DNA of 35,878 bases from a virus. The stretch spans positions 1 to 35,878 of IMG/VR virus record IMGVR_UViG_3300032323_002093; one strand, written 5' to 3'. The position numbers and the translations under genes were made by a program. How positions within the stretch are numbered: position 1 is the first letter of the stretch; each line of letters starts with the position of its first letter. The notes beneath the pieces were generated by a model that saw only the letters and a program-made list of their open reading frames with translations, ran no database searches and was not told the DNA's origin. Of this stretch, positions 3,006 through 29,410 are shown piece after piece.

Positions 3006-3034
3006 ATTATACCACCCCGTATAGCTGGTGTCAA
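3006..3034 (-). promoter_or_regulatory. Consensus sigma-70 promoter for phoH
   Basis: On the minus strand TTGACA (3034-3029) and TATAAT (3011-3006) are both exact consensus, separated by 17 bases. Transcription should begin near 2999, leaving a leader of about 35 bases. No clear terminator separates this promoter from the preceding gene ending at 3043, so read-through from upstream may also reach phoH. Confidence 0.9.
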
Positions 3035-3042
3035 ATAAAAAT

Positions 3043-3243
3043 TTATTTACCCTGCTTTGGTGGCGGTACTGGTGTACCTTCTAGCTTTTTATGTACAGTA
3101 ATGGTTTTGCAAACTTCTTTTACTTGCTTTGTTTTAGGGTCTGTTTGATCAACACATACACGCTTGGTTTCTGCGGCAGCAAAAACTGTTGGTGGCGCCA
3201 ATAAGCATAAAACTGTTGCTAGCACAATTAGTGGTTGTTTCAT
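3043..3243 (-). CDS. Small secreted Cys-pair protein of the envelope cassette
   Basis: This 66-residue protein has a signal peptide (about residues 1-23: Lys, hydrophobic core, then a VFAAA-like cleavage site). The mature part of roughly 43 residues is hydrophilic, with two cysteines 15 residues apart around a DPKTKQVKEVCKTI stretch, and HKKLEGTPVP near the end. The cysteines could form a disulfide in the periplasm. I recognise similar short secreted proteins, with the same DPKT and HKKLEGT wording, from marine phages, where function is unknown. Its ATG directly follows the upstream stop (TAAATG), and GGAG lies seven or so bases upstream. It is the last gene before the phoH promoter. Confidence 0.75.
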   Translation of the reverse strand: MKQPLIVLATVLCLLAPPTVFAAAETKRVCVDQTDPKTKQVKEVCKTITVHKKLEGTPVPPPKQGK

Positions 3244-3696
3244 TTAAATCTCCGGTTGTGGGGCTTGTTGTGGGGCAGGTTTGCCGTTAATCATTCGGAC
3301 TTCTGCTGTGGCAGTACCGTTAAATCCTGCAGTAGTCGATAGACCTGGATTAAATGTAGGCTCTTGTTTTGGTACATAACTAGTTTTGGCTGCAGCTGCT
3401 GCATTTTCTTGCGCTTGTTTCATTAGTGCTAAACTAGCGTCTACTTCTTCTTTGCTGCCGCCTGCCAACATAATACCAGACAGAGTACCAGTTAAAAATG
3501 TAGCAATTGGTACAATTAACTCAAAAAACTTTTGGTCAATTGGTGAAATAGCATTTAGTGGTTGTGTAACAAAAATAAGTGAATATAATACAACAAACAC
3601 GATTCCTGTTAAGGTAAGAGCTAAGCATACCCCAATAAAGAATTTTAAACGAGCCATTAATTGCTCGTCACTATATAAAAATGTATCACTTTGCAC
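3244..3696 (-). CDS. Two-segment membrane protein of the envelope cassette; holin candidate
   Basis: This is a 150-residue protein with two hydrophobic segments, at about residues 16-42 (FFIGVCLALTLTGIVFVVLY) and 57-78 (LIVPIATFLTGTLSGIMLA), joined by SPIDQKFFE. A Pro/Gln/Ala-rich tail of about 70 residues follows. I chose the GTG at 3696 because AGGAG lies six bases upstream and it overlaps the preceding gene by 11 bases. The frame is open to 3753, and an ATG at 3657 would give a shorter form. Similar proteins with the PIDQKFFEL and TGTLSGIM wording occur in marine phages. The two-segment layout and nearby lysis genes make it a holin candidate, but the long soluble tail and missing experimental relatives keep this tentative. 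Confidence 0.75.
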   Translation of the reverse strand: MQSDTFLYSDEQLMARLKFFIGVCLALTLTGIVFVVLYSLIFVTQPLNAISPIDQKFFELIVPIATFLTGTLSGIMLAGGSKEEVDASLALMKQAQENAAAAAKTSYVPKQEPTFNPGLSTTAGFNGTATAEVRMINGKPAPQQAPQPEI

Positions 3697-3955
3697 AGGC
3701 GGCTCCTGGAGTTGGTGTTGAAACAGTTGGGGTATTAGTAGCTTGTGGGTCAAGACGCGGATCTCGCTGACCTTTAAACACGTGATCTGGACAGGTACGT
3801 GTTACGTCACAGATTGGTCGTTTGCATTGTGGAGTGTCCCAGTTTTCTGGGTTTTGGCAAGGATAGCGAAAACGGTCGCCACCAAAAAATGCTAGTGCAA
3901 CTGGTAGTAGCACTAAAACTCCTAGCCACTTAAATAGTTTAAGGTCAGTGTTCAT
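3686..3955 (-). CDS. Cys-rich membrane-anchored protein of the envelope cassette
   Basis: This is an 89-residue protein. A hydrophobic segment at residues 8-25 acts as signal anchor or signal peptide, followed by GGDRFRYPCQNPENWDTPQCK and four further cysteines. The Cys spacing suggests a disulfide-stabilised periplasmic head. The tail is rich in Thr and Pro. AGGAA precedes the ATG, which abuts the stop of the previous gene (3956). I know of short phage proteins with the same FRYPCQ.PENW.PQCK wording in marine phages, with no known function. It ends inside the start region of the two-segment membrane protein, so their translation is probably coupled. Confidence 0.75.
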   Translation of the reverse strand: MNTDLKLFKWLGVLVLLPVALAFFGGDRFRYPCQNPENWDTPQCKRPICDVTRTCPDHVFKGQRDPRLDPQATNTPTVSTPTPGAACAK

Positions 3956-4534
3956 TTATTTTCCTGCTAGTGGGTTATCGATGGCTTTTTGGATTCTGCT
4001 ATCAACTTCTCTTTTAAGTTGTTCAACCTCTCGTGTAATCTCACGACGAGCATCAGCCATTTCTTTGCGGATAGCATTTACTTCTGATCTGGCTTTATCA
4101 AGATCTTCGCGAACATCTTTTCGTGCTTGACGCATCTCGGACTCGGTTTCACGTTGAGCTGACTTAACGCTACGTTCAACTTGCTCAGTTACTGACTCGT
4201 TTCTACGAATATCTGATTTTAAATCATTTTTAATGTCACGAGTATAGTCGCTGGTTTTTGAACTATTCTCTTCAATAACAGCTAGTCGTTTATCAAACTC
4301 CGATAAGTCTGGTGCTTCATAACTAGCAATTTTCTTTTTCATGTTTTGATAGTCTTTGTAGACTTCAAAAGCACCGTAAAGACCCCCTAGCATTGAGCTT
4401 ACTAGAGTAAAAGCTACCATTAATTTAGCGGGCGTAAACTCGTACCCGCCGATACTAATAACAGTATCTTTACTTGCGTACTGTTTTGCGGCGGCTTCTA
4501 GTTCGTCTACTTTTTTGTTTAAATCTTGTGCCAT
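3956..4534 (-). CDS. Membrane-anchored long coiled-coil protein
   Basis: This 192-residue protein has a short N-terminal helix, a membrane segment at about residues 36-56 (LMVAFTLVSSMLGGLYGAF), and then over 110 residues of highly charged heptad sequence rich in Glu, Arg, Lys and Asp. AAGGAG seven bases upstream supports the ATG. The coiled coil is long enough (about 16 nm) to reach from the inner membrane well across the periplasm if it faces outward. With several Arg/Lys residues on both sides, topology cannot be settled by eye. It lies inside the envelope cassette. Spanin-like, scaffold-like or superinfection-exclusion roles are all possible and none is demonstrated. Confidence 0.75.
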   Translation of the reverse strand: MAQDLNKKVDELEAAAKQYASKDTVISIGGYEFTPAKLMVAFTLVSSMLGGLYGAFEVYKDYQNMKKKIASYEAPDLSEFDKRLAVIEENSSKTSDYTRDIKNDLKSDIRRNESVTEQVERSVKSAQRETESEMRQARKDVREDLDKARSEVNAIRKEMADARREITREVEQLKREVDSRIQKAIDNPLAGK

Positions 4535-4543
4535 AACAGCTCC

Positions 4544-4957
4544 TTATTTAGGCGTATTTTCAAACCGCAAATTTTTAAGATTTTGTAGTTCGCGCTCTAA
4601 TCGCTCTACTTCAATACGCTTTTTTCGTAGTTCTAATTGATAAAGCTGATTACAATCTAAGCGATTTTTAGGGGCACCTATTGGTATGGTAAGTCTACCA
4701 TATACACCAACATCTCTGTTTTGTGGAACAGGAGAAGTAGTAATAGTGTTGTTGTTATTGTTTATAACGCCTACAACACCAAACTCTACATTGGTACTAG
4801 ACCCTATTGCCATTGAACAATCAACTCCATCTGCACGAAAACTATCTGATTGAAAGCTACTAAATGAACCTGGCAACGATAAGTTTAGTGAGTTGGGGTT
4901 GGCTAAAGCAACTGAGTTAAACAGGGTTAAAGTGCCAAGTAATATAAGTCTAATCAT
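4544..4957 (-). CDS. Secreted protein of the envelope cassette with C-terminal coiled coil
   Basis: This is a 137-residue protein with a signal peptide (residues 1-19, ending ALA). A beta-rich middle carries two cysteines (in DGVDCSMAIG and RLDCNQL). A roughly 30-residue charged coiled coil (LELRKKRIEVERLERELQNL) lies at the C-terminus. The stretch NNNNNT is an Asn-rich linker. The ATG overlaps the preceding gene by 8 bases and has only a weak ribosome site, so it is probably translated by coupling. Proteins with the same VEFGVVG and YGRLTIPIG wording occur in my memory of marine phage genomes. The function is unknown. The signal peptide places it in the periplasm or outer membrane. Confidence 0.72.
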   Translation of the reverse strand: MIRLILLGTLTLFNSVALANPNSLNLSLPGSFSSFQSDSFRADGVDCSMAIGSSTNVEFGVVGVINNNNNTITTSPVPQNRDVGVYGRLTIPIGAPKNRLDCNQLYQLELRKKRIEVERLERELQNLKNLRFENTPK

Positions 4958-5330
4958 TTTTTACTTTAGAACATATTTTTGAAGATATTACTGTATCCCT
5001 GACGTCTTCTCTGCGAAGTCGTGATTCAGTGCATATATATACTACTCGTTTAACGTCCTGAAATTTAACGTACACGTTTATCTTTTTAGTTTCAAGGTAT
5101 CTTACGTGTATTATCTTATTTTCTGAAGCAAAGCTTACGGGTTTCCAATCTTCTGTGAAAACCCCTACTTCATAATACTCTACTTCACGACGTTTGTTAA
5201 ATAGTTCCATTTTTGTTTGGGCAACATCCTCAACAAAGGAAGGCCCAAACTTAACATAGGTGGGAGTAAATTGATGTGCGTGTACTGAAACGCTCACCCA
5301 CATCAATGCCAATAGTAATAGTCGAAACAT
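4950..5330 (-). CDS. Secreted single-domain PapD-like (fimbrial chaperone-like) protein
   Basis: This 126-residue protein has a signal peptide (residues 1-18, ending VHA). The mature part alternates hydrophobic and polar residues like a seven-stranded beta sandwich: TKMELFNKRREVEYYEVGVF, then a SENKIIHVRYLETKKINVYV stretch. This resembles the N-terminal domain of periplasmic pilus chaperones. Chaperones of that class have two domains and about 210 mature residues, whereas this has one. Cys100 and Cys120 may form a disulfide. I chose the ATG at 5330. A TTG at 5345 would overlap the previous stop and add five residues. It follows the pilin-like gene by four bases. The chaperone reading is a fold-level impression, not a motif match. 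Confidence 0.7.
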   Translation of the reverse strand: MFRLLLLALMWVSVSVHAHQFTPTYVKFGPSFVEDVAQTKMELFNKRREVEYYEVGVFTEDWKPVSFASENKIIHVRYLETKKINVYVKFQDVKRVVYICTESRLRREDVRDTVISSKICSKVKND

Positions 5331-5334
5331 TGTC

Positions 5335-5826
5335 TTATAGGGCAATACACTCTGCTAAAACAACGGCACGATACTCGCCAGCTGGAAAAGACTTGTTAAA
5401 ACCGTACTGTGCTTTTGAAGTAGCACTAAACCAAACTGTTCCTGGGATGGTTAAGTCAAATTCCGATGTATTGTTATATACACGTTTATTTGTTGTATAT
5501 GCAGACATGCTTGGATTAGTAACTTTACTTACCGCAACACTGCCAGTAAAGTTAACGGCGTCTGTTAGTGATGGACTAGTAGTAAACGAACTTGGCACAG
5601 TAATAAGTGCTTTGTAAAATCCTGCTTCTACAACGTCATAACGAATAACAGGCGTAACACCACCGTCTGTACGGTCAGTGCTTAGTAGTCCTGGTGTTGG
5701 GTTACCAAACACACCAGGTGTATCTGTGTTGATAACACACTTGGGTGTTACCATTCCGCGAATAGGGATTTCTGCGGCTTGAACGCTGGTACACAGCGCA
5801 AGTGCTAGTAGTATAGATTTAATCAT
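5335..5826 (-). CDS. Secreted pilin-subunit-like protein
   Basis: This 163-residue protein has a signal peptide (residues 1-18, ending VQAAE). The mature part is almost all beta-strand and loop. It has only two cysteines, Cys30 near the start and Cys160 at the end (VVLAECIAL), a spacing typical of Ig-like fimbrial subunits that close with a disulfide. The start at 5826 has AAGGAA upstream and overlaps the 280-residue gene by 8 bases. A longer frame to 5928 lies inside that gene and lacks a signal peptide. Next downstream is the PapD-like protein, so subunit and chaperone would be adjacent. No usher is present in the window. Pilin-like is my inference. Other beta-sandwich folds are possible. 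Confidence 0.7.
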   Translation of the reverse strand: MIKSILLALALCTSVQAAEIPIRGMVTPKCVINTDTPGVFGNPTPGLLSTDRTDGGVTPVIRYDVVEAGFYKALITVPSSFTTSPSLTDAVNFTGSVAVSKVTNPSMSAYTTNKRVYNNTSEFDLTIPGTVWFSATSKAQYGFNKSFPAGEYRAVVLAECIAL

Positions 5827-6661
5827 TTTTGATTCCTTGGTTATATTGTTGGTCAACCATCCTGGTATGCAGGCGTTCTTGACTAAAACTGATTCTAGCG
5901 CTATTTCGGCTATCGGGCAAGCGCGCATCCCTGAGCTTTAAAGTTTCCAAATAAACGCCACCGGGTAGTGCACGATTATAGCTGGCTATATTTGGTATGT
6001 TGTTTTGTTCAAACAGTGCGGCCGCTATTGCTTGGTCTGCCAGTGAGTTGGTTGTGTTTCTTTTTAATGTTTGAGCTTTTTTGGTTTGTTCTGTTTGCAA
6101 CATTCGTTGTGCTGCAACACGTTCTTCTTCGGTTTGCTGCCACAATCTTTGTGACTGCTGTTCCGGCACTGATTCTGTAAAGGTTACAGGTTGAGCTGGT
6201 GGGCGATAGTTTGGGCAACTTGGATCTTTGGTTTCACCAAAACAAGTATCGTATCTAAAAGAGTAGTTTACTTGTGTGTTTTCTATGCTTCCAATTCCTG
6301 TAGTAGTTATACTACCAGGACCCCACTGAGTGCCTGGTATATTATTAACTGGCACGGTTTTAACCAGTGTGTTGCCGGGTAAACCAGTCCAATCATCTTG
6401 CGATCTAAAAACATACCCCGGGGTGTTTGCGTTGCGGTTTGCAACTGTTACTAGTAGTGGGTCGCTTGGTAATTTTACGGCAGTATAGCTATATCTAACA
6501 GCATCGACAGTTAAACCAGCAGCTTGTGGTAACACATTAGTCATTACCCATGATAGTCCAGTGCTAGCTGCATTTTGCGTACTGCCAATTACTGTTTCAG
6601 AGTAAGAGTAGGAGCAACAAAGCCAATAAACCGCCAGCGCTAAATAGTGTTTTAGTTTCAT
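5819..6661 (-). CDS. Large secreted protein of the envelope cassette
   Basis: This is a 280-residue protein with an N-terminal signal peptide (hydrophobic core LALAVYWLCC, cleavage near SYSE). Residues 22-140 are beta-rich and contain GLSWVMTNVLPQAAGLTV. A short Cys-bearing segment follows (DTCFGETKDPSCPNY, about 138-152). The C-terminal 120 residues are helical and rich in Gln, Glu and Arg. The sequence pattern matches secreted proteins I associate with marine phages, none of known function. The start overlaps the upstream gene by 65 bases, meaning that two signal or membrane segments are coded in different frames over the same DNA. The ribosome site is weak, so coupling is likely. Confidence 0.72.
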   Translation of the reverse strand: MKLKHYLALAVYWLCCSYSYSETVIGSTQNAASTGLSWVMTNVLPQAAGLTVDAVRYSYTAVKLPSDPLLVTVANRNANTPGYVFRSQDDWTGLPGNTLVKTVPVNNIPGTQWGPGSITTTGIGSIENTQVNYSFRYDTCFGETKDPSCPNYRPPAQPVTFTESVPEQQSQRLWQQTEEERVAAQRMLQTEQTKKAQTLKRNTTNSLADQAIAAALFEQNNIPNIASYNRALPGGVYLETLKLRDARLPDSRNSARISFSQERLHTRMVDQQYNQGIKND

Positions 6662-7133
6662 TGCTTATTTCTCGGTTCTTCTGTTTTAGGCCAGGTTGCT
6701 GTGCTTCATTGGCTTTCCAAGCAGCACGAGCTTCTGCACCGATTGTTCCGTCATATGGACAAGGTGTGCCGGCTTGCATCATGGCATCAAATACTCGGCG
6801 GTCTTGACAAAGTGTTGACACAGCTGCTACTTTCATGCCCATATCAAACAGTGTTTTTGAAAGCTTTAATCGCTCGCAATTTAAGTCTGTTACGGTACTG
6901 CCTGCACTAATACCTAAGATTTGGGTTTGCACAGCTCCAGCCACACCTACCACGCACAAGTCTGAGTTGGCTGTATTTATAGTTGGTGAAATAGCTGATG
7001 CAGGTGGCGATCTAACAGTACTGTCGCTACGAGTATTAACGGTACTGTTAGTTGTTACGGTGTTGTTTAAGTCTTGTGCTTGCGTGGCAGTTCCACATAC
7101 CAACACAAGTGCTAAAATTATGCGTTGCAGCAA
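6597..7133 (-). CDS. Secreted protein with a C-terminal membrane anchor; starts with TTG
   Basis: This 178-residue protein has a signal peptide (LILALVLVCG core, cleavage near ATQA), a low-complexity Asn/Thr/Ser stretch (residues 22-57), and a conserved-looking core (SDLCVVGVAGAVQTQILGIS to CQDRRVFDAMMQAGTPCPYD). It ends in a hydrophobic tail of nine leucines among GGLLALLLLLLL. The four core cysteines suggest disulfides. With both ends hydrophobic, the mature protein is probably tethered in the inner membrane facing the periplasm. The start is TTG at 7133, supported by AGGAG six bases upstream, just after the endolysin stop. It heads the envelope cassette. I recall the same core in marine phages without a function. 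Confidence 0.75.
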   Translation of the reverse strand: MLQRIILALVLVCGTATQAQDLNNTVTTNSTVNTRSDSTVRSPPASAISPTINTANSDLCVVGVAGAVQTQILGISAGSTVTDLNCERLKLSKTLFDMGMKVAAVSTLCQDRRVFDAMMQAGTPCPYDGTIGAEARAAWKANEAQQPGLKQKNREISNETKTLFSAGGLLALLLLLLL

Positions 7134-7134
7134 A

Positions 7135-7761
7135 TTATGCTCCTAGTACATGCAGTGCATGGTTGTAGTGCTTGATGCGATCATCTAAGCCAATTGTACC
7201 GCCATTAATACGTTTGGTTAGTGTTAAAATATCGCCACGATCTGCCCACGTATTAAGTTTATTTGTTTCCCAGAACCAGCATGCTGACTGTGCAGCACCT
7301 TCAAAAGTTTCCAAGTACTCAGCCGCCTCTTCAACTGAGATTTCTAGACTAGCAGCAAACCAAGTATAGTTGTCGCGGCCTGTTAATTGGATTAATCCCT
7401 TGCCTGCAAAACGCCAACCATCGCCCGACTCAGGAGGTCCGTTGCCCATACGGTTGGCGTAAACTAAGTTAGCAATTGCTTGTTGCTTGTTTGGCATTGC
7501 AGCATACTGCTGTGCTAGTTCATCTGTTGGAAAATACTTGGGAAATATTTTACGCAGTGTTTGCCAACGGTAGTTTAAATTTTCACGTAGTGCAGTAAAG
7601 TTTCCTGACTCATGTGCACACTGTGCAACAAAAGCTGCAATACGTTGTGGTGTATTGATTTGGTAATCTGGTAGCAACTGAGCCAGTGCACCATGCCACT
7701 GCTTAACATAAGGATTTTTGGGAATTAACTGCTGTAGTTGTTGTAGTGTTAGTTCAGTCAC
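7135..7761 (-). CDS. Endolysin, glycoside hydrolase 19 type
   Basis: This 208-residue cytoplasmic lysin resembles chitinase-class-I-type (GH19) muramidases. The signature AQCAHESGNF at residues 46-55 contains the likely catalytic Glu51. It is followed by NRMGNGPPESGDGWRFAGKG and LIQLTGRDNY, the substrate-cleft region of the family. It should cleave the peptidoglycan sugar backbone after the membrane is opened. No signal peptide is present, so release needs a holin. I place the start at a GTG at 7761, overlapping the o-spanin stop (GTGA) with AAGGA six bases upstream. The frame is open to 7809, but that would lie wholly inside the o-spanin gene. It completes a spanin-spanin-lysin cassette. Confidence 0.92.
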   Translation of the reverse strand: MTELTLQQLQQLIPKNPYVKQWHGALAQLLPDYQINTPQRIAAFVAQCAHESGNFTALRENLNYRWQTLRKIFPKYFPTDELAQQYAAMPNKQQAIANLVYANRMGNGPPESGDGWRFAGKGLIQLTGRDNYTWFAASLEISVEEAAEYLETFEGAAQSACWFWETNKLNTWADRGDILTLTKRINGGTIGLDDRIKHYNHALHVLGA

Positions 7762-8024
7762 TTTAAGTCCTTGTGTATGATTTGTTGTTGTTGATACCAC
7801 CCTTGCCAAGCTTCCAATTTAATCACACACTGGTAGTATTGTGTGTAATTTTGGTTGATTGTTTCTGCTACTTGACTTAGCGTGGGGTTTGCTGGTAGTG
7901 GCTTTAGTTCGCCACAAGGTTGCTGACTTTGCAAGCCTGGAGGTTCCGGCCAACGCTGCGTAACTGGTACTACAGTGGCACAACCGGTTAGTGTTAGGGT
8001 TAAAGCTAATAGTACGGTTTTCAC
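7758..8024 (-). CDS. Outer-membrane spanin (Rz1-like lipoprotein)
   Basis: This 88-residue protein has a lipoprotein signal and lipobox LTGC (residues 12-15, acylated Cys15). A Pro-rich stretch (RWPEPPGLQSQQPCGELKPL) and a short helical tail with two Trp (AWQGWYQQQQ) follow. It should sit in the outer membrane and bind the i-spanin coiled coil to fuse the membranes at the last lysis step. The start is GTG at 8024, inside the i-spanin stop (GTGA), with AAAGG upstream. Unlike lambda Rz1 it is not nested in Rz. The genes only touch over four bases. Confidence 0.88.
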   Translation of the reverse strand: MKTVLLALTLTLTGCATVVPVTQRWPEPPGLQSQQPCGELKPLPANPTLSQVAETINQNYTQYYQCVIKLEAWQGWYQQQQIIHKDLK

Positions 8025-8440
8025 TTAGGTGCCTTTGCTGCCATATTATGTGCTGAAACAAACTCTGGTGGAATTACGCAGCTGTTGTCGTGTTTAACAA
8101 CCTCACGAGTAATGTACTCTGTGGTGTTTTCACCACGTTGCTTTACTACTTGAGTTTTGGTAATTACCCGTTCTTTTATAACTTCATTTACTTGTTGCGA
8201 TTTGGCTTCTGCAACTTCAACTTTGTGTTGCAAGTCACGAGCAGCTTGTTGCCACACGCCATTGGCGTATAACAGTCCCAGTGTAAAAATTACCGCCAAG
8301 ACTACCACACCACCCACAATTTTAATTGGCAATTGGTACGTTTTTATTGGTACTAGGTGTGCTAAAAAATACCCGGAAAATCCAGCTAATAGTAACAGCC
8401 ACCAAAACCAATGTGGAAAAATTTCTAAAATCCAAAACAT
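8021..8440 (-). CDS. Inner-membrane spanin (Rz-like), two membrane segments
   Basis: This is a 139-residue protein with hydrophobic segments at about residues 11-30 and 41-60. A periplasmic coiled coil (ARDLQHKVEVAEAKSQQVNE onward) follows, ending in a conserved-looking tail with CVIPPEFVSAHNMAA. This tail and the coiled coil are typical of i-spanins. Most Rz proteins have one N-terminal membrane segment, so the extra one is unusual but seen in some phages. A single Cys near the C-terminus could give the covalent dimer known for Rz. GGAA precedes the ATG, and a terminator lies just upstream at 8458-8482. It is the first gene of the lysis cassette, yet I see no promoter at this boundary. Confidence 0.87.
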   Translation of the reverse strand: MFWILEIFPHWFWWLLLLAGFSGYFLAHLVPIKTYQLPIKIVGGVVVLAVIFTLGLLYANGVWQQAARDLQHKVEVAEAKSQQVNEVIKERVITKTQVVKQRGENTTEYITREVVKHDNSCVIPPEFVSAHNMAAKAPK

Positions 8441-8457
8441 TTTTTGTTTTCCATAAA

Positions 8458-8482
8458 TAAAAGCGGCACTTGGCCGCTTTTA
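8458..8482 (-). terminator. Terminator between the fibre cluster and the lysis cassette
   Basis: A perfect 10-bp stem, TAAAAGCGGC (8458-8467) with GCCGCTTTTA (8473-8482), has a 5-base loop and gives a short T-run on either strand. It follows the stop of the 133-residue gene by five bases. It may attenuate rather than fully stop transcription into the lysis genes, which have no obvious promoter of their own. Confidence 0.75.
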
Positions 8483-8486
8483 TAGT

Positions 8487-16827: not shown

Positions 16828-16856
16828 ATTATACCACAAGGGCATGGTATTGTCAA
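16828..16856 (-). promoter_or_regulatory. Consensus sigma-70 promoter for the fibre unit
   Basis: On the minus strand TTGACA (16856-16851) and TATAAT (16833-16828) are exact, with a 17-base spacer. The promoter begins four bases past the terminator of the central fibre gene. Transcription should start near 16821. The leader of about 120 bases to the 118-residue gene contains a second isolated TTGACA (16793-16788) without a matching -10, and an AT-rich palindrome near 16719-16733. Confidence 0.9.
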
Positions 16857-22520: not shown

Positions 22521-25500
22521 TTACCTTATACCAGCCTTGGCTTGTAGCCTATTAGCTTGTATAGCTTTGCCCGAACTATCAACAACAGCTTGAGCAATTT
22601 CTGCTGTATTGCGATCAGTTGCTTCAGCATTCATTACAGCACCTTGTGCTACTGTTTGCTCTAGCGACTGTATTTTTTGATTTAGCTTTTTGATTTCTAT
22701 TACTAGTACTTCGTTAGTTCTGTTGCGGTTGCCAATACTTGACATTAGCTCCAAGTTATCTGCGGCAGGAATAATTCGCTCGCCACGATGAATTTGAGCT
22801 ACCATGTCTTGCGGCACAAAGTTTGTACCAACTGCAAAACCTGGTGCAGTAATTGGCGTACCGCCTAAGCTTAAGTATGCTTGTAACAGTTGCGCAGTAG
22901 TTTTACTTGCAGTATCAATACTTTGTAAGTATGTGTTAGAAGCTTCTAATGCATTTAGCTGTTTTTCGGCATCGCTTAACTGAGTCTCTAAACCACCGCT
23001 AACAGTGTTAATAATTGACATTATAGCACTAAAATCGCTGGTATACTGTGCTCCGCTGGCAAATAAGTTTCGTGATTGGTTCAGGAACTTATCGCTAACT
23101 GAAGTTAGTTTTCCTATTGCCACATTACGAGCTTCTATTTCCTCTGGAGTAGTTGCTGTTTTACTAATAGTAGCTACCAGACCTTCTACTTCTGATTTAG
23201 CTAAACGATACTGTTGGGTAGCGGTTAGTGTAGAACTGGCTCCACTTAGTAGTGAAGTTTTGTAGTCTTTAAGGGCTAGTACTTGTGACTTAAGAGTGTT
23301 TGTTACACCTTTTAAGTTAGACTGTAAGGCCTTTGCTGCCGAAATCTGATCTTCTCTTAACCAGATTTCACGCTGCAATTCGCGATTATTAGCAAACAAA
23401 CCTTCTAGTTCGCGTTCACGAAGTTCCTCGCGTGTTGCTGTTAGTGCAAATAGTTTTTGCTCTAGCTGCTTGCGTTCATCTGCTTCTTGCTGTGCTAGTT
23501 TGGAGGCTTCTTCGGCTTGCTTAACTGCTTCGGCTGTTACTTTTATAAAACCATCGGCAACATTCATTAGTGCTTGGTAGTTTTGTCGACCGGCATCTGT
23601 GGTTAGGTCTAGGCTCTGTACTAGTTGCTTAAACTCTTCGCGAGTGTCAACAGTTGAGTATCCTAGTCTAGCCATTTCCTCTGTTACTGCTTTTTGAACT
23701 GGTGCTAAACGTTCAGCTTCTGTTAAAAAGTTTTCACGGAAAAAGTTAGTTTGGTCTAAAAAGTTTTCTAAGCCGCCAGCTAAGTTGGCCAATGTTTCGG
23801 TTATTGCAAAACTTAGTTTACCAGAATCTATGCCAATGTTTTTAATTTGTTGGTTTATTTTGGTGTTTGTGTCTACAACACGCACTACTGTTTCCAGCAT
23901 GCCTTCGCCAAAGTTAGCAAAACTCTCAAAGCTTGAAAATATAGCGGAAGCGGCATCGTCTAACACAGTACCAATAACGGCACTTAGTTCTTTTTCAAAG
24001 TCTTCGCCTTTTAAGCCGCGTAAGCTGGTAAAGTTTTTACCAACATCCATTCCGCCAAGAATTTGATTAATTGCATTGGCGTCAACACCTGCTTTGGCTC
24101 CAACTTCAATAAACATTTCAGTAGCATTACCGAAAATATCTTGGAAGAAGTCTGAAGTGGCGTCGTCAATTTCTCTGCGATTGGTTTCAACCCAAGTTTT
24201 AGTTTTACCGTACCAAGATCTTTTTGATACAGTTACTTGCTCAAAGAAGTCAATAACTGCTTTGTTGGTGTCGCTTGCAAGTTGTGCAAAAGTACCTTCA
24301 ATTAACAAGCCGCTGTCAGTAATACTGCGCGAAGTTTTGCTACTTAAAAATCCAGTACCTAATAAACCGCCACCGCTTTGTGAGCCGGTTACGGTACCAA
24401 ACATTGAACCACCACGTAAACCTTGAATACTGTACAACCCTTTGGCGGTGTTATTAATACCTTGGTCAATACTGGTTAGTAAATCAACCATGCGGTTGTT
24501 ATAGCTTAAACCGTCTACAGAGTTATCTTTTAAGATTGCCAGTGAGTTAGCAATTGATTCTGACTTAGCATCTGTGTCTCCAAATACACCGCGGCGTACT
24601 TGCACTTTATTGCCTTGCGAATCCCAACCCATTGCAGTACCTTGAGTTTCTTGACGCTGTTGTGCGTTTGGCTCAAAGCTTGCTCCGCCACCGCCGCCAC
24701 GTCCAAGAAACGCAGCAATCATAGCTGCAGCAACTGGGGGTCCGAAGATACCTAGTTGACCAATAGTAGCTGCATAAATCTTAGGGATGTTAATACCAAT
24801 AGACATTAAAGCATTGTTAGCTTGCATTGCTAAGTCTTTAGCACTTGCGGCCATACTAGCCACCTGTACTTGAGTTAGTAAACCTAATTTAATAGCCGCC
24901 TCTTTGATGCTTAAGGCAATAGATTGTGCAGCACGAAGCTTTTCTAAGTTGTTTAAGACCTTAAAAGCAGCGGTTTTCTCTTTAAACATTCCTTTTGCAA
25001 CACCGGCAGCCTTCATTTGACCAGTAATTTCAAATTTAGTGCGTTCGTCAGTGTTTTCTTTAAACTTCTGCTTATACGCTTCACTGTCTTTGTCCATACC
25101 TGCCAGGCTTTCGGCATGTCTTTTTGCCATAGCTGTAGAACCCATACTGTACTTAACTAGTTCACTAACAGTTTCACCTATTTTAGTACCTAGGTCGCCA
25201 AACAGAGCTGACAAAGACTGTGTAGCTATAGCGACTTTATTTAGTGCTAGGGCTTGTTCATTTGTTGCGGCATTTAGCTGTGTACGTATACCGAGTTGTG
25301 TTAGCAGACTTTGTACTTGCGTATCGCTGCTGGCATTTGTGCGCTCAATTAGTGTTTGTTGTTCACGAATTTTTTCGTTTAAGGCAGTTTGATCTTTAGG
25401 AGTTGCTGTCTTTAACGCTATTCGTGATTGGCTAATAACCTGTTCTGCACCAGCAGTAATATCATTAGCACTTTTTCGAATTTGGTCAATTCTAGTTTGT

Positions 25501-28500
25501 GTTTCTAGTCTTGCTTTGTCGTTATCTAACAATAGTTTTTCACGCAGGTAGCTTTGTTCGCTGATTGCACCCAACTGTTTAGCTGCTTCAAGCTGAGACT
25601 CTGCCATGTTTAGTCTGTCAGTTTCTAGTGCTTGAGTTTCTTGTAAACGTGTAAATAGTCTTTCTTGTTCTTTTGTTTGCAACGCAAACTGAACATTAGA
25701 AGCTTCTAAAACTTGCTTGTTGGTTAAATTCTTTTCTGCAATTTCACCATCAATCTTTAATTGCTTTAGTCTTTCTTTTACTCGCTCAATTTCTATACCT
25801 ATTTGAGCTTTTTCTGATTTTTCTTTAGCCTTATCTTGTAGTATCTCAAAAGCACCAAGCTGTATACGTAAATCAAAATTCTTTTTCTGGCTTTGAAACT
25901 TTAATTCTTCTTGGTCTATACTTTGTTTTTGTCTTAATACTAGTCCGGATTCGGTACCGACTATTGACTCTAAGGTGCTTAGCCCTTCTTTGTTTAGCTT
26001 TAAACGATTAGCGGCTGCGTCTAATTGTGTTTCATCGGATTTTAGTCTAACTCTTGCCAAGTCTACGGCGGCTTTTATAGCAACTACATCCATTTGAGCA
26101 CTAATTCCTGCCATTTGTGCAAAAGCGGATTCTGCTGCTTGTACGTAGGTTAAGCTTTCGCGAGCACCCATTACATTTTTATTGATATCTTCCACCAGTT
26201 TTGCTGTAGCACCTTTAGTAACTTTAGTATCAAGTACTGATCGGCGTCTGTCCAAAGCTATTTGGCGGTCTGCATATGGTCGTAAGTCTTTTGCGTCTAT
26301 ATTTGGGCCCAGTGCTGCTACTTGTCTGTTTAAAGAATCTTGCTCAATAGCAATTGCTAAACGTTCGTTTGACTGGATTAATAGAATTTGAGTTCTGATT
26401 TGTTCGCGCTGGCCTTCTAGGGCAAGCGTTTCGTACTTGGCACGCATTCTAATGCCTGCTTCAGTATCACCTAACATTCCTGCAATGGCATTACCAATAA
26501 TGCTGCCAGCTTTAGCCCATTCGGCGCTTAGTCTATCACTAATTAGTTTAGCACCATAAGCAAACTGATCTGTTAGTACTTTATCAAATTGTTTGCTTAA
26601 TGTCTGTACGTCTGTCTGTACCTTAAAAAGCAAATCTGTTTTAACTTTCTTAACACTAGATAGCTTTGAAAGTTCTGCGTTGATTTCCTTTATTTGATCG
26701 CGCTCTACACCGTAGAGTCCGGCACGTTGTTCTAGGTCAGCACGCTGCTTAAGTAAAGAAGCCACTCGTTTTTCGGTATCTTCTATTTCGCTAGTTGTGT
26801 TGGCGTAACTTTCTGTTAGCTTTTCTAGTTCTCCACGTAAACCGACCAACATTGTGCCAGTTTCTGGAGGGAATAAGCTTAAACTATTTGCGTCTCGCAC
26901 AGCAGCATTCATTGCATTTAGTGTCTGAACCGGATCTTGCAGTGCAGTACTTAATTTTTCAGCACTTGAAACGATTGTAGCACCTAAACGGCTTACGGCG
27001 TCTGTTGGTATAAAGCTTGTACGTAAGTCTTGTAGCTGTCTTGTTGCAGCTGTGTATATTTCTGTTAGCTCTTTGCCTCTAGCTGCAGTAATTTGTGCAG
27101 CTAGTGCTGCTTCTTTTAAGTCCTTGGTAAGCTTATCCATACCTACTTTACGAACAGCCTCAGGTAGCTTGTCTAATGCTTTTTCGATACTTTCTGTATC
27201 TATTGTATCGATTCCAAGAATGTTCTTAAAAGTTTCGCGTAGCTTATCTGCGGAAGGGCCTCTTTCTAAAGCAGTAAATGCACTGGCGAAACCTTCTGCT
27301 GTTCGCTCATTTAGTTTGCTTTGGACGTCACCGCTCCACAGTTTGGAGATAAAGTCTACAAACTTATCTGTACGACCCATTTTGTCTAGCTCTGCTACTG
27401 CGCGTGTATTTGCCATGGCAATACTATCAGCTAGCTCACCGAACGCTGTTGCGCGAGCTTCAATAGCTGTTATAGTAATTCTTTCAAGCGGGTCTTTTTT
27501 GTTTAAAAATTCAAGAGTTCTAGCAACGTTTTCTACTGAGCTAGTTACTCCATCTAGGGCTTTTGCTGTAGCTGCGGATTCTTTCTTTGTTTCTGATAAC
27601 CAACTTACAAATGTCGAAATAATAGTAGTGGCTATACCAATAGCGGCAATCCATCCACCAAAAGCGTTTAAGGCAGTCATAGCAGCAGAACCTGCAATAC
27701 CAATAGAGCCTTGCAACATCGTAAACGTTTTGGCGGCAGGACCCGCATCTAGTTTGCTGGTTTCTACACGTAATTGTCGGAAAGCGGCAACAGGACCCAT
27801 TACTGCAGCTGTGTCAGCTACGTCTGCTAATAACATACGCTTTTTAGAATCACGGTTAAGTTTTTCTAAGTTCATTTGCATTTGCTTTGCGTGACTAAAC
27901 ATTTTATTGTCACGAGCTTCGCTGGCGTCTGCTGCCCTGTTTCCTACTTCTACGCTTTCCTGCTTTAGCGCATCCATGGCCGCTAAATGCGCTTGTAGCT
28001 TTTTACCTTGCTTTTGTTGTGTGGCTGAATCAGAATCCAACAGTGCCTGAGAGCGTGCTTTAAGTGCCGCTGTTTCTTCAGGAGTAATATCAAAAGCACC
28101 CTTTTTAAGAGTACTACGCAGGTCTTTGCCTAGCAGTTCTTGACTGAATCTGGCTTTCTGTAGTTTTGCTATTCTGTCTTGTGTGGACTTTTCAGTTTGG
28201 AATGCTTTTTCTGCGCTCATAGCGCGTGCAGCATCTATTTGTGAAGCAGCTTCAATTTGGTCTGCTACGCTTCTGGCAACTCGCTCGCGAGTTTCTTCTG
28301 CTAGTACGCGTGCATTTTCACGATACATGCCTAACGCAGGAATTGCTTGTTTTAATAGTATAGCAGCAACGCCAGCCATAGCTGCGCCAAGCGCAGTTGG
28401 GCTTGCTGACAGTAACTCCACCAGGGGACCTAGTGCAACGTTAATGGTTTCTAGGATCTTTTGGGATAAGTTTGTTATGCTTGCCAGTAGCTTGCTGTAA

Positions 28501-29315
28501 GGGTTACTGTCTAGTTCGATAACGCCGAACTTCTTTTCACCTTGTTCAATAGCTAACATTGCAAAAGCGTGACGGCGTTCAAAGTCTGTTAACTGAGACG
28601 CGGCTTTGCCTACGCTACGAGCGTATACAGTAACAGCATCATCTACTTTTACAAACAAACCAATTTCGTCCAGCAATTCTGGTTCAATTTTAGTAATACC
28701 ACGACTTAAACGACTTAACGCATCAGGCATTGCTACACCAAGTGCTTGGCTGGCATTTTTTGCTACTTTGGCTAAGCGTTCAAAGTTCTGTGAACTCATA
28801 CCAGCAGCCGTTGCTTGTGCTGTTGCTGTCATTGCTTCGCGCAAGTTAACAGCACCGTCAGTTATATCAACAATACGTGATGATAGTGCACCAAGGTTAC
28901 GGCCAGCGGCAGCACCTAGTTGATCTAAGCCTTTTACCAGGTTTGTGGTATCAGCTGCATTTTTAAGTGCAGTAAAAGCCGCACTAACTGCAAACAAGTT
29001 AGCAGCAAATGTGGCGTATACACGTACCAATCCACCCAAGCCTTGAGCTTGGTTTGCAAAGTCACGAGCGCTTGCACCAGTTAAACCAGCACTACCACGA
29101 GCACTTCCGTACTCTCGTCCACTCATTAGTTCTGAGCCACTGGGTGCTGCACGTGCAGCTACCATGCGCGAACCAGGGGTACCTGCATTTAACTTTTCTG
29201 TTACTTTTTGAGCTTGTGCAGCCGCTTGCGTTATTTCTTGAAGGTTTTTTACAACTTTTTTGGCGGTTCCGTTGTCACTTACATTAACGCCAATATTTAC
29301 ATTTTGTGTTGCCAT
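22521..29315 (-). CDS. Tail tape measure protein
   Basis: This is a 2264-residue protein, long even for siphophages. It is mostly helical coiled coil rich in Ala, Lys, Glu and Leu. It has a hydrophobic pair around residues 550-585 (GGWIAAIGIATTIISTFVSW) and another around 1515-1540 (IFGPPVAAAMIAAFLGRGGG). The C-terminal segment contains FAVGTNFVPQDMVAQIHRGE, a common tape-measure signature, then a short coiled coil. It sets tail length during assembly and is ejected ahead of the DNA. At about 0.15 nm per residue it predicts a tail near 340 nm. The ATG has AGGAG eight bases upstream. A dedicated promoter lies at 29382-29410. Confidence 0.96.
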   Translation of the reverse strand: MATQNVNIGVNVSDNGTAKKVVKNLQEITQAAAQAQKVTEKLNAGTPGSRMVAARAAPSGSELMSGREYGSARGSAGLTGASARDFANQAQGLGGLVRVYATFAANLFAVSAAFTALKNAADTTNLVKGLDQLGAAAGRNLGALSSRIVDITDGAVNLREAMTATAQATAAGMSSQNFERLAKVAKNASQALGVAMPDALSRLSRGITKIEPELLDEIGLFVKVDDAVTVYARSVGKAASQLTDFERRHAFAMLAIEQGEKKFGVIELDSNPYSKLLASITNLSQKILETINVALGPLVELLSASPTALGAAMAGVAAILLKQAIPALGMYRENARVLAEETRERVARSVADQIEAASQIDAARAMSAEKAFQTEKSTQDRIAKLQKARFSQELLGKDLRSTLKKGAFDITPEETAALKARSQALLDSDSATQQKQGKKLQAHLAAMDALKQESVEVGNRAADASEARDNKMFSHAKQMQMNLEKLNRDSKKRMLLADVADTAAVMGPVAAFRQLRVETSKLDAGPAAKTFTMLQGSIGIAGSAAMTALNAFGGWIAAIGIATTIISTFVSWLSETKKESAATAKALDGVTSSVENVARTLEFLNKKDPLERITITAIEARATAFGELADSIAMANTRAVAELDKMGRTDKFVDFISKLWSGDVQSKLNERTAEGFASAFTALERGPSADKLRETFKNILGIDTIDTESIEKALDKLPEAVRKVGMDKLTKDLKEAALAAQITAARGKELTEIYTAATRQLQDLRTSFIPTDAVSRLGATIVSSAEKLSTALQDPVQTLNAMNAAVRDANSLSLFPPETGTMLVGLRGELEKLTESYANTTSEIEDTEKRVASLLKQRADLEQRAGLYGVERDQIKEINAELSKLSSVKKVKTDLLFKVQTDVQTLSKQFDKVLTDQFAYGAKLISDRLSAEWAKAGSIIGNAIAGMLGDTEAGIRMRAKYETLALEGQREQIRTQILLIQSNERLAIAIEQDSLNRQVAALGPNIDAKDLRPYADRQIALDRRRSVLDTKVTKGATAKLVEDINKNVMGARESLTYVQAAESAFAQMAGISAQMDVVAIKAAVDLARVRLKSDETQLDAAANRLKLNKEGLSTLESIVGTESGLVLRQKQSIDQEELKFQSQKKNFDLRIQLGAFEILQDKAKEKSEKAQIGIEIERVKERLKQLKIDGEIAEKNLTNKQVLEASNVQFALQTKEQERLFTRLQETQALETDRLNMAESQLEAAKQLGAISEQSYLREKLLLDNDKARLETQTRIDQIRKSANDITAGAEQVISQSRIALKTATPKDQTALNEKIREQQTLIERTNASSDTQVQSLLTQLGIRTQLNAATNEQALALNKVAIATQSLSALFGDLGTKIGETVSELVKYSMGSTAMAKRHAESLAGMDKDSEAYKQKFKENTDERTKFEITGQMKAAGVAKGMFKEKTAAFKVLNNLEKLRAAQSIALSIKEAAIKLGLLTQVQVASMAASAKDLAMQANNALMSIGINIPKIYAATIGQLGIFGPPVAAAMIAAFLGRGGGGGASFEPNAQQRQETQGTAMGWDSQGNKVQVRRGVFGDTDAKSESIANSLAILKDNSVDGLSYNNRMVDLLTSIDQGINNTAKGLYSIQGLRGGSMFGTVTGSQSGGGLLGTGFLSSKTSRSITDSGLLIEGTFAQLASDTNKAVIDFFEQVTVSKRSWYGKTKTWVETNRREIDDATSDFFQDIFGNATEMFIEVGAKAGVDANAINQILGGMDVGKNFTSLRGLKGEDFEKELSAVIGTVLDDAASAIFSSFESFANFGEGMLETVVRVVDTNTKINQQIKNIGIDSGKLSFAITETLANLAGGLENFLDQTNFFRENFLTEAERLAPVQKAVTEEMARLGYSTVDTREEFKQLVQSLDLTTDAGRQNYQALMNVADGFIKVTAEAVKQAEEASKLAQQEADERKQLEQKLFALTATREELRERELEGLFANNRELQREIWLREDQISAAKALQSNLKGVTNTLKSQVLALKDYKTSLLSGASSTLTATQQYRLAKSEVEGLVATISKTATTPEEIEARNVAIGKLTSVSDKFLNQSRNLFASGAQYTSDFSAIMSIINTVSGGLETQLSDAEKQLNALEASNTYLQSIDTASKTTAQLLQAYLSLGGTPITAPGFAVGTNFVPQDMVAQIHRGERIIPAADNLELMSSIGNRNRTNEVLVIEIKKLNQKIQSLEQTVAQGAVMNAEATDRNTAEIAQAVVDSSGKAIQANRLQAKAGIR

Positions 29316-29381: not shown

Positions 29382-29410
29382 ATTATAGCACACAGGCAAC
29401 AATTTGTCAA
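29382..29410 (-). promoter_or_regulatory. Consensus sigma-70 promoter for the tape measure unit
   Basis: On the minus strand TTGACA (29410-29405) and TATAAT (29387-29382) are exact, with 17 bases between. It follows the chaperone terminator by about 20 bases. Transcription should start near 29375, giving a leader of about 60 bases before the tape measure ATG at 29315. Confidence 0.9.

Follow-up and report, generated by a model that had tools for sequence, protein, structure and literature searches.

The window, by which we mean the whole 35,878-nucleotide stretch of viral DNA that was analysed (IMG/VR record IMGVR_UViG_3300032323_002093), carries nine small genes, here lettered a to i, in the interval between an endolysin gene and phoH. 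The features of this region, all on the minus strand, are as follows.

8457..8483 (-), terminator-like hairpin directly upstream of the i-spanin gene (-14.8 kcal/mol, z -2.6)
8021..8440 (-), i-spanin, Rz-like, two hydrophobic N-terminal segments (phrog_2536, E 4e-5; phrog_4952, E 1e-7)
7758..8024 (-), o-spanin, Rz1-like lipoprotein (phrog_456, E 2e-5; phrog_4952, E 1e-7)
7135..7761 (-), endolysin, GH19/chitinase-like (phrog_181, E 5e-76)
6597..7133 (-), i, 178 aa, TTG start (phrog_20531, no named function)
5819..6661 (-), h, 280 aa, sharing 65 bp with i
5335..5826 (-), g, 163 aa, secreted, two Cys (phrog_25895, no named function)
4950..5330 (-), f, 126 aa, secreted, predicted single PapD-like (Ig) domain
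4544..4957 (-), e, 137 aa, secreted (phrog_37374, no named function)
3956..4534 (-), d, 192 aa, one transmembrane segment (~38-58), long coiled coil, C-terminal DNPLAGK
3686..3955 (-), c, 89 aa, N-terminal anchor, Cys-rich
3244..3696 (-), b, 150 aa, GTG start, two-transmembrane hairpin (phrog_25359, no named function)
3043..3243 (-), a, 66 aa, signal peptide and cationic peptide
3006..3034 (-), perfect sigma-70 promoter in the interval between a and phoH (TTGACA-17-TATAAT)

All nine ORFs of a preliminary description of 3043-7133, which had them packed on one strand between endolysin and phoH, were confirmed with their lengths. Each belongs to a protein family whose members recur in the same order, so the nine ORFs are not a product of chance. 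Perfect TTGACA-17-TATAAT sites number three in the window against 0.02 expected; since one of them separates a from phoH, the latter lies outside the unit. A longer endolysin ORF begins at 7809; the GTG at 7761 (208 aa) is nevertheless the likelier start, to judge from homologues and from where the o-spanin gene stops. The Rz-like inner-membrane protein gene overlaps that of the Rz1-like lipoprotein, and both have PHROG matches, as in a spanin pair.

Envelope targeting, also part of the preliminary description, held up. Counting non-redundant family members, an N-terminal hydrophobic segment is present in 92 of 99 for i, 77 of 82 for g, 82 of 94 for f, 61 of 79 for e, and all 30 for c and all 28 for a; b has two transmembrane segments and d one. 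On this crude measure h scored lower (67 of 130). The genes are likewise undescribed as far as the libraries and open-licence literature searched can tell: searched against Pfam, all nine proteins stayed below the cutoff, the six proteins i to d have no naming match in Pfam, PDB sequences or that literature, and no published description of their module was found there.

The idea that all nine make up a single lysis-cassette machine fared less well. That conserved envelope genes are kept together was borne out, but the nine genes are, judging from co-occurrence among relatives, two modules: six genes in the order i-h-g-f-e-d, and c-b-a. We rejected a single module because i is missing from 18 of 51 dereplicated c clusters (and present in the other 33), and c from 80 of 99 dereplicated g clusters. 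GH19 endolysin was absent within ~8 kb of g in 81 of the 99. By these counts the two modules can occur apart, although they are frequently neighbours.

Of the nine genes, only c-b-a qualify as lysis-associated: the trio travels with the endolysin and lies 3' of it in many phages. Genes b and c are on the same strand and at most 150 bp apart in all 131 loci that have both. The b protein (median identity 92% among relatives) carries SPIDQKFFEL in the loop of its transmembrane hairpin and has a polar C-terminal tail. By hydropathy and position it is a small two-transmembrane hairpin adjoining an endolysin, as holins are, and we infer from this topology that b is a holin candidate, albeit one that matches no known holin family in PHROG or Pfam. 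The c protein has the motif RYPCQxPxNW...C..P.C....CP; it is a lipobox lipoprotein in five of 30 non-redundant relatives, the window's copy not being among these. The mature part of a is cationic (pI 9.6), with ~43 residues, two Cys and HKKLEGT. Thus c-b-a resembles holin/spanin cassettes in having a two-transmembrane hairpin beside an endolysin and in following that gene in many phages, but differs in that b falls outside the holin families and c and a match nothing described. It may be a separate lysis-cassette accessory, in which b would be holin-like, c its Cys-rich (lipo)protein partner and a a cationic periplasmic peptide.

The six-gene module has a much wider distribution. Its first gene, i, is encoded in 139 dereplicated phage-contig clusters, and the i pattern has more than 600 matches among the IMG/VR matches listed. 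All six genes occur in 88 dereplicated clusters, with order and orientation identical in every one and none shuffled, while another 22 contain i-h-d alone; g-f-e were found only alongside a short h. Median gaps between successive genes are -68, 11, -11, -4 and 5.5 bp, which looks like co-transcription, and the pairwise distances of the six genes correlate (r 0.48-0.72). On the bacterial side, 85k species genomes yielded 27 matches, all on MAG or single-cell contigs, and i was absent from the isolate genomes among them. The module thus appears to be virus-restricted and phage-borne, in unrelated aquatic phages. The i-h-d core is also present, as unnamed ORFs, in cultured Pelagibacter and Roseobacter phages, the former being HTVC023P, HTVC033P, HTVC202P, Mosig and Baldr.

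These observations agree with the earlier view of a conserved module as opposed to random cargo, and homologues scattered outside a shared neighbourhood were not seen. That unrelated small morons had simply gathered in a permissive spot is scarcely credible and already contradicted: each gene is indeed small and outside any named family, and marine phages vary in the DNA around them, but neither the fixed order nor the correlated divergence would be expected, nor would locus L053, where the module is inverted as a block after c-b-a. The sequence motifs named in the preliminary description proved widespread in uncultured phages; in cultured marine phages only SDLCVVG (of i) was clear, FRYPCQ and SPIDQKFFEL giving two and four matches, respectively, that were weak or partial.

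Could the entire stretch, six-gene module included, be an envelope-breaching lysis machine, acting with endolysin and spanins to open or weaken the outer membrane or to set the time of lysis? In the window's relatives the module does sit inside the lysis cassette, either between endolysin and c-b-a or ahead of c, b and endolysin, and the HTVC023P and HTVC033P copies have a gene for a peptidase, lysozyme or amidase close by. On the other hand, the window already has a full spanin pair and endolysin, and the genes upstream of the module are often for tail fibres, tail-fibre assembly, glycosyltransferases or replication. The frequent lack of a nearby GH19 gene points the same way, although this count is not a strong exclusion because other endolysin types were only tallied. 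We consider a lysis machine unlikely.

The constant elements of the module are in i, h and d. The i protein consists of a signal peptide, a Pro/Ser/Thr-rich stretch, a Cys domain (C60, C86, C109 and C125 invariant in 82 of 82 sequences) and a hydrophobic C-terminal tail whose coding DNA overlaps that of the h signal peptide. The d protein ends in NPL in 66 of 69 non-redundant homologues; its topology is ambiguous under the positive-inside rule. In h, a signal peptide is followed by a beta-rich N-terminal domain (GYxFRxxDDWxG...YDTC), a variable linker and a constant C-terminal motif (GGxY...H..M...QY). In six-gene loci h has 244-334 aa and the DDW motif is found in 73 of 88, while in i-h-d-only loci it has 446-873 aa and the motif is found in none of 22. 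On these figures h is modular, its C-terminus constant and its N-terminal domain exchanged. It is also the fastest-diverging of the genes: median identity between close relatives is 50% for h versus 91-92% for endolysin, b and phoH; such fast divergence fits an exposed part.

Hints of carbohydrate binding come from pelagiphage h proteins and not from the window's short h. HTVC033P gp45 is annotated as carbohydrate-binding by its depositors, and in HTVC202P gp25 a CBM_4_9 match falls below threshold (E 0.02); the other h proteins gave no credible match. With one sub-threshold match in one pelagiphage protein, the label was dropped for h as a whole. The idea that h is a piece of tail fibre was also rejected, since it does not resemble the fibre protein of the window.

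Of the three remaining proteins, g has invariant Cys (C30 and C160, 81 sequences) and a first conserved strand that starts at the mature N-terminus; it matched nothing beyond chance in Pfam and nothing by PDB sequence profiles. Mature f has 108 residues, predicted by AlphaFold2 to form one Ig-like domain (pLDDT 90.9, pTM 0.79). Foldseek's best PDB matches to this model were the pilus chaperones Caf1M, SafB, FimC, DraB and FaeE (E 8e-4 to 1e-2), with query TM-scores of 0.50-0.61, which are moderate, and MSP/ASH domains also matched. From the model, f is probably a single PapD-like domain, nearest to pilus chaperones. The PapD-like idea for f had preceded the structure prediction. C100 and C120 are invariant in f, and the mature protein begins with His19 in 91 of 91 sequences, nearly always just after an A-x-A type cleavage site. 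A copper histidine-brace protein (CopC, LPMO) would share this His, but none of the other His residues is conserved across the 91 sequences to supply the second ligand, and that reading was rejected. Sequence searches for chaperone-usher or SCPU/pilin relationships of f and g (91 and 81 sequences; Pfam and PDB profiles) gave chance-level matches only. Compared with chaperone-usher pili (FimC/FimD, Caf1M, SafB, FaeE), f has a PapD-like fold and is encoded directly after a small, Ig-sized secreted protein, g, itself at most a candidate pilin. However, f has one domain and not two, and the nine genes encode no usher-sized or usher-family protein and show no sequence match.

Pilus-like features raise the alternative that the complex makes extracellular fibres or an adhesive gluing infected to uninfected cells, an idea termed 'sibling capture' (PMC7029224). 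Many i homologues have long Asn/Thr/Ser/Gly repeats (i reaches 277-487 aa in many i-h-d loci), h has CPGY Cys repeats or lectin-like domains, and f is similar to pilus chaperones. But the window's i is free of repeats, g is single-copy with no obvious N-terminal donor-strand extension, and the usher is absent. We consider adhesion quite improbable.

The e protein (C47 and C102 invariant) is predicted to form an amphipathic beta hairpin (~55-64, ~84-93) and then a helix (102-134). Its AlphaFold2 model, from a seven-sequence alignment, was of low confidence and unusable (pLDDT 51), although the strand pattern is conserved across the homologue alignment. We infer that e is a candidate oligomeric outer-membrane hairpin protein. 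This hairpin and helix, like those of oligomeric pore subunits, would suit a conduit through the outer membrane by which molecules are secreted or taken up in infection, analogous to the CsgG/CsgF pores proposed for pelagimyophages, and pelagiphages do carry such a secretion-pore operon (curli, or type VIII secretion) (PMC7029224, PMC9004378, PMC9599517). Yet the module shows no sequence similarity to either CsgG or CsgF, and a pore built of e cannot be the common function, as the i-h-d form lacks e; we regard a conduit as highly doubtful. Like the curli operon, the module is a multi-gene, virus-borne envelope operon of aquatic phages, moves as a block between phage families and has a putative function. 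Unlike it, the nine genes include no CsgG, CsgF, CsgA/B, FecR or kinase; the gene sets differ. HTVC008M, which infects the same host as Mosig, lacks the module at the place where Mosig has it. A swap of i-h-d in Mosig for a curli operon of HTVC008M was rejected, the primase-adjacent segment of the latter having no CsgG or CsgF.

Our preferred reading, which we advance tentatively, is that i-h-g-f-e-d is a mobile accessory operon whose products form an envelope complex that would show an exchangeable h domain at the surface of the infected cell. The h N-terminus would be this exchangeable, probably glycan-binding, domain; the constant parts would be i (disulphide-rich, secreted), the C-terminus of h, and d, anchored in the inner membrane and bearing a coiled coil with DNPL at its end. 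The short h N-terminal domain comes with three extra secreted proteins, of which f might chaperone or cap g or h, and e might form oligomers within the outer membrane. An outer-membrane translocator of a familiar kind (usher, CsgG, secretin) is missing from the module, which counts against surface exposure of h. The likeliest benefit would be an altered cell surface to which competing phages, or the phage's own progeny, fail to adsorb. Tail-fibre and tail-fibre-assembly genes among the upstream neighbours speak for this reading, but the neighbours vary and so do not by themselves indicate exclusion.

The superinfection-exclusion envelope proteins Llp of T5 and Cor of T1/N15 are secreted, single and small, and often encoded near receptor-binding genes. 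Secretion is common to both cases; here, in contrast, six genes are co-inherited.

It is possible, if doubtful, that marine and freshwater lytic phages share in this operon an undescribed class of envelope-spanning display machine, with a constant base, swappable payloads and g/f/e specific to a payload. In it, i, the h C-terminus and d would make up the base, and g, the PapD-like f and e would assemble one payload. If the proposed role is right, a large proportion of uncultured aquatic phages would rebuild the host-cell exterior through a dedicated multi-protein apparatus, with a bearing on phage-phage competition and virocell surfaces in oceans and lakes. Regardless of mechanism, a virus-restricted six-gene operon of invariant order and without a named protein is a clear target. 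Since cultured Pelagibacter phages carry the i-h-d core, the proposal is testable now; in one of them, Mosig, the module lies directly upstream of a coiled-coil gene and the DNA primase gene.

The phage of the window, a linear IMG/VR record of 35,878 bp, is siphophage-like; it encodes a tape-measure-like ORF (22521–29315) and a major capsid protein ~36% identical to T5-like phage counterparts. A minus-strand series runs from the tail fibre gene through those of a 133-aa protein, i-spanin, o-spanin and GH19 endolysin to nine further genes and then phoH, and contains two regulatory features:

8457–8483, minus strand: terminator-like hairpin between the 133-aa protein gene and the i-spanin gene
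3006–3034, minus strand: perfect sigma-70 promoter between the nine genes and phoH

All nine ORFs lie where the preliminary description had placed them, with products of 178 (i), 280 (h), 163 (g), 126 (f), 137 (e), 192 (d), 89 (c), 150 (b) and 66 aa (a). Perfect TTGACA-17-TATAAT promoters occur three times on the minus strand (3006–3034, 16828–16856, 29382–29410; chance expectation 0.02). The i-spanin, with two hydrophobic N-terminal segments, and the o-spanin (together 7758–8440) match, respectively, the beginning and the end of a single 171-aa profile, phrog_4952, so that the pair is probably a fused spanin elsewhere. On the plus strand, a 196-aa protein with collagen-like Gly-Pro-X repeats (110–700) adjoins a Dps-like gene (710–1147).

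The nine genes, first proposed to form one machine, belong to two separable modules, i-h-g-f-e-d and c-b-a. Viral contigs scanned with c yielded 79 loci, to which the window proteins were compared by tblastn. Even in distant phages without the other six genes (endolysin 55–59% identical), c-b-a lies directly 3' of the endolysin, and in c-bearing loci the genes i to d sit as a separable block between those for endolysin and c. In one locus (L053, 10947–13973) d-h-i is inverted as a block and sits downstream of c-b-a, on the other side of a, which is direct evidence that this core moves as a unit. Scans added with g, i and e (at least 600 matches listed for i) brought the set to 313 loci at family assignment, and dereplication on i at 90% identity gave 139 clusters among the matches listed. 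Among these, 88 held all six genes, without exception arranged i-h-g-f-e-d on a single strand (88 of 88), and 22 held i-h-d only; the rest were incomplete, several probably through contig ends. The six-gene form is favoured in this sample, since loci were fetched by similarity to window proteins. Of 99 clusters with g, 80 lacked c and 81 lacked the GH19 endolysin, while i was present in 33 and absent from 18 of the 51 clusters with c. Thus each module occurs alone, yet both are often neighbours: the expected conservation of gene neighbourhood was borne out, but not the single nine-gene unit.

Within the smaller module, b adjoins c in 131 of 131 loci holding both. The c protein is cysteine-rich, with a lipobox in five of 30 non-redundant members; b is a two-TM hairpin, and a is cationic (pI 9.6). 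Actinomycetia phage DSL-LC01 (L090), whose recorded host is an actinobacterium, has a c-b pair in which c is a clear lipobox lipoprotein.

In the larger module, i carries a signal peptide and four cysteines invariant in 82 of 82 sequences, and its homologues at many i-h-d loci contain extended Asn/Thr/Ser repeats. In the window i overlaps h by 65 bp in a different frame (6597–6661), where the hydrophobic tail of i shares its DNA with the h signal peptide. This C-terminal tail is tied to the overlap, being present in 110 of 115 clusters with an overlap of at least 40 bp and in one of nine without it. The h protein combines a constant C-terminus with an exchangeable N-terminus: short forms (244–334 aa; DDW motif in 73 of 88) pair with g-f-e, and long forms (446–873 aa; DDW motif in 0 of 22) occur in loci without g-f-e. 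Among 13 close relatives h is the most divergent gene (median identity 50%, against 91% for endolysin and 92% for both b and phoH).

For f, sequence searches alone reveal no fold relation. When an AlphaFold2 model from 91 sequences (pLDDT 90.9) is compared with the PDB by Foldseek, pilus chaperones head the hits together with other PapD-like domains, an affinity proposed before the structure was predicted. The mature N-terminal residue of f (4950–5330) after predicted cleavage is His in 91 of 91 sequences; no second conserved His is found among them, and hence f has no histidine brace. The model of e, a hairpin plus helix, is of low confidence, and d has a TM segment, a coiled coil and NPL near its C-terminus (66 of 69).

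The six-gene module is packed like an operon, keeps a fixed order, moves as a block and encodes secretion signals; its h is modular, and a fold is predicted for f. We tentatively suggest a role in surface display and exclusion, though the odds are somewhat against it: the six products would form one complex displaying h on the cell exterior, where its N-terminal payload may bind glycans (one sub-threshold CBM match and one depositor annotation point this way), and the phage might benefit by excluding competitors. A role in lysis is unlikely; immediate upstream neighbours of i, among those outside the assigned families, include tail fibre and tail-fibre-assembly genes and a few glycosyltransferase, endolysin and replication genes, which argues against a strictly lysis-bound function of the six genes. 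This neighbourhood fits a cell-surface role without proving it, and downstream neighbours are mixed. That the module builds an adhesive fibre is less probable again, and that it forms a conduit slightly more doubtful still. Near the module in 42 of 197 loci is a ~109-aa protein (for example L208, 7333–7662) with an EF-hand-like DTNGDG loop and two TM segments, possibly a calcium-responsive membrane protein.

Two systems are nearest in kind. Pelagiphage curli operons (PMC7029224, PMC9599517, PMC9004378) have no gene in common with the module as far as Pfam shows. Chaperone-usher pili share only the chaperone fold of f; two of their defining features, a two-domain chaperone and an usher, are lacking. 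No description of the module was found in the published open-licence papers searched; within this scope its features match no known kind of system, which falls short of proving a new mechanism.

Among 85k species genomes, only 27 contigs matched i, all from MAGs or a single-cell genome and none from an isolate. With g, tblastn found no match in the phage collection; by profile, the cultured Vibrio phage Morian proved to encode remote homologues of g (24%) and e (30%) close to an endolysin gene (L089, 4109–4579 and 4887–5264), and neither i nor h turned up in the vicinity. The Morian e ORF carries no annotation in its record. Six Pelagibacter phages encode i itself (HTVC115P, HTVC202P, HTVC023P, HTVC033P, Mosig and Baldr), and the Roseobacter phages CRP-207 and CRP-810 carry more distant versions. 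Reading the neighbourhoods of cultured phages carrying i revealed i-h-d-like triplets:

HTVC023P: gp45-gp46-gp48
Baldr: gp1-gp3-gp4
Mosig: 202-201-200
HTVC202P: gp24-25-26
HTVC033P: gp46-45-44

In these triplets the d-like protein is short, has a single TM segment and a coiled coil, and ends in NPL plus 1–2 residues. CRP-810 gp51 (L087, 6210–6632) and CRP-207 gp73 (L085, 3292–3873), both annotated as lysozyme, show no such domain in Pfam; each is a d-like protein with a TM segment and a coiled coil, and ends in NPL. In Mosig the triplet immediately precedes a conserved coiled-coil gene and the DNA primase gene, a place where HTVC008M, which infects the same host, lacks it; the module is therefore accessory.
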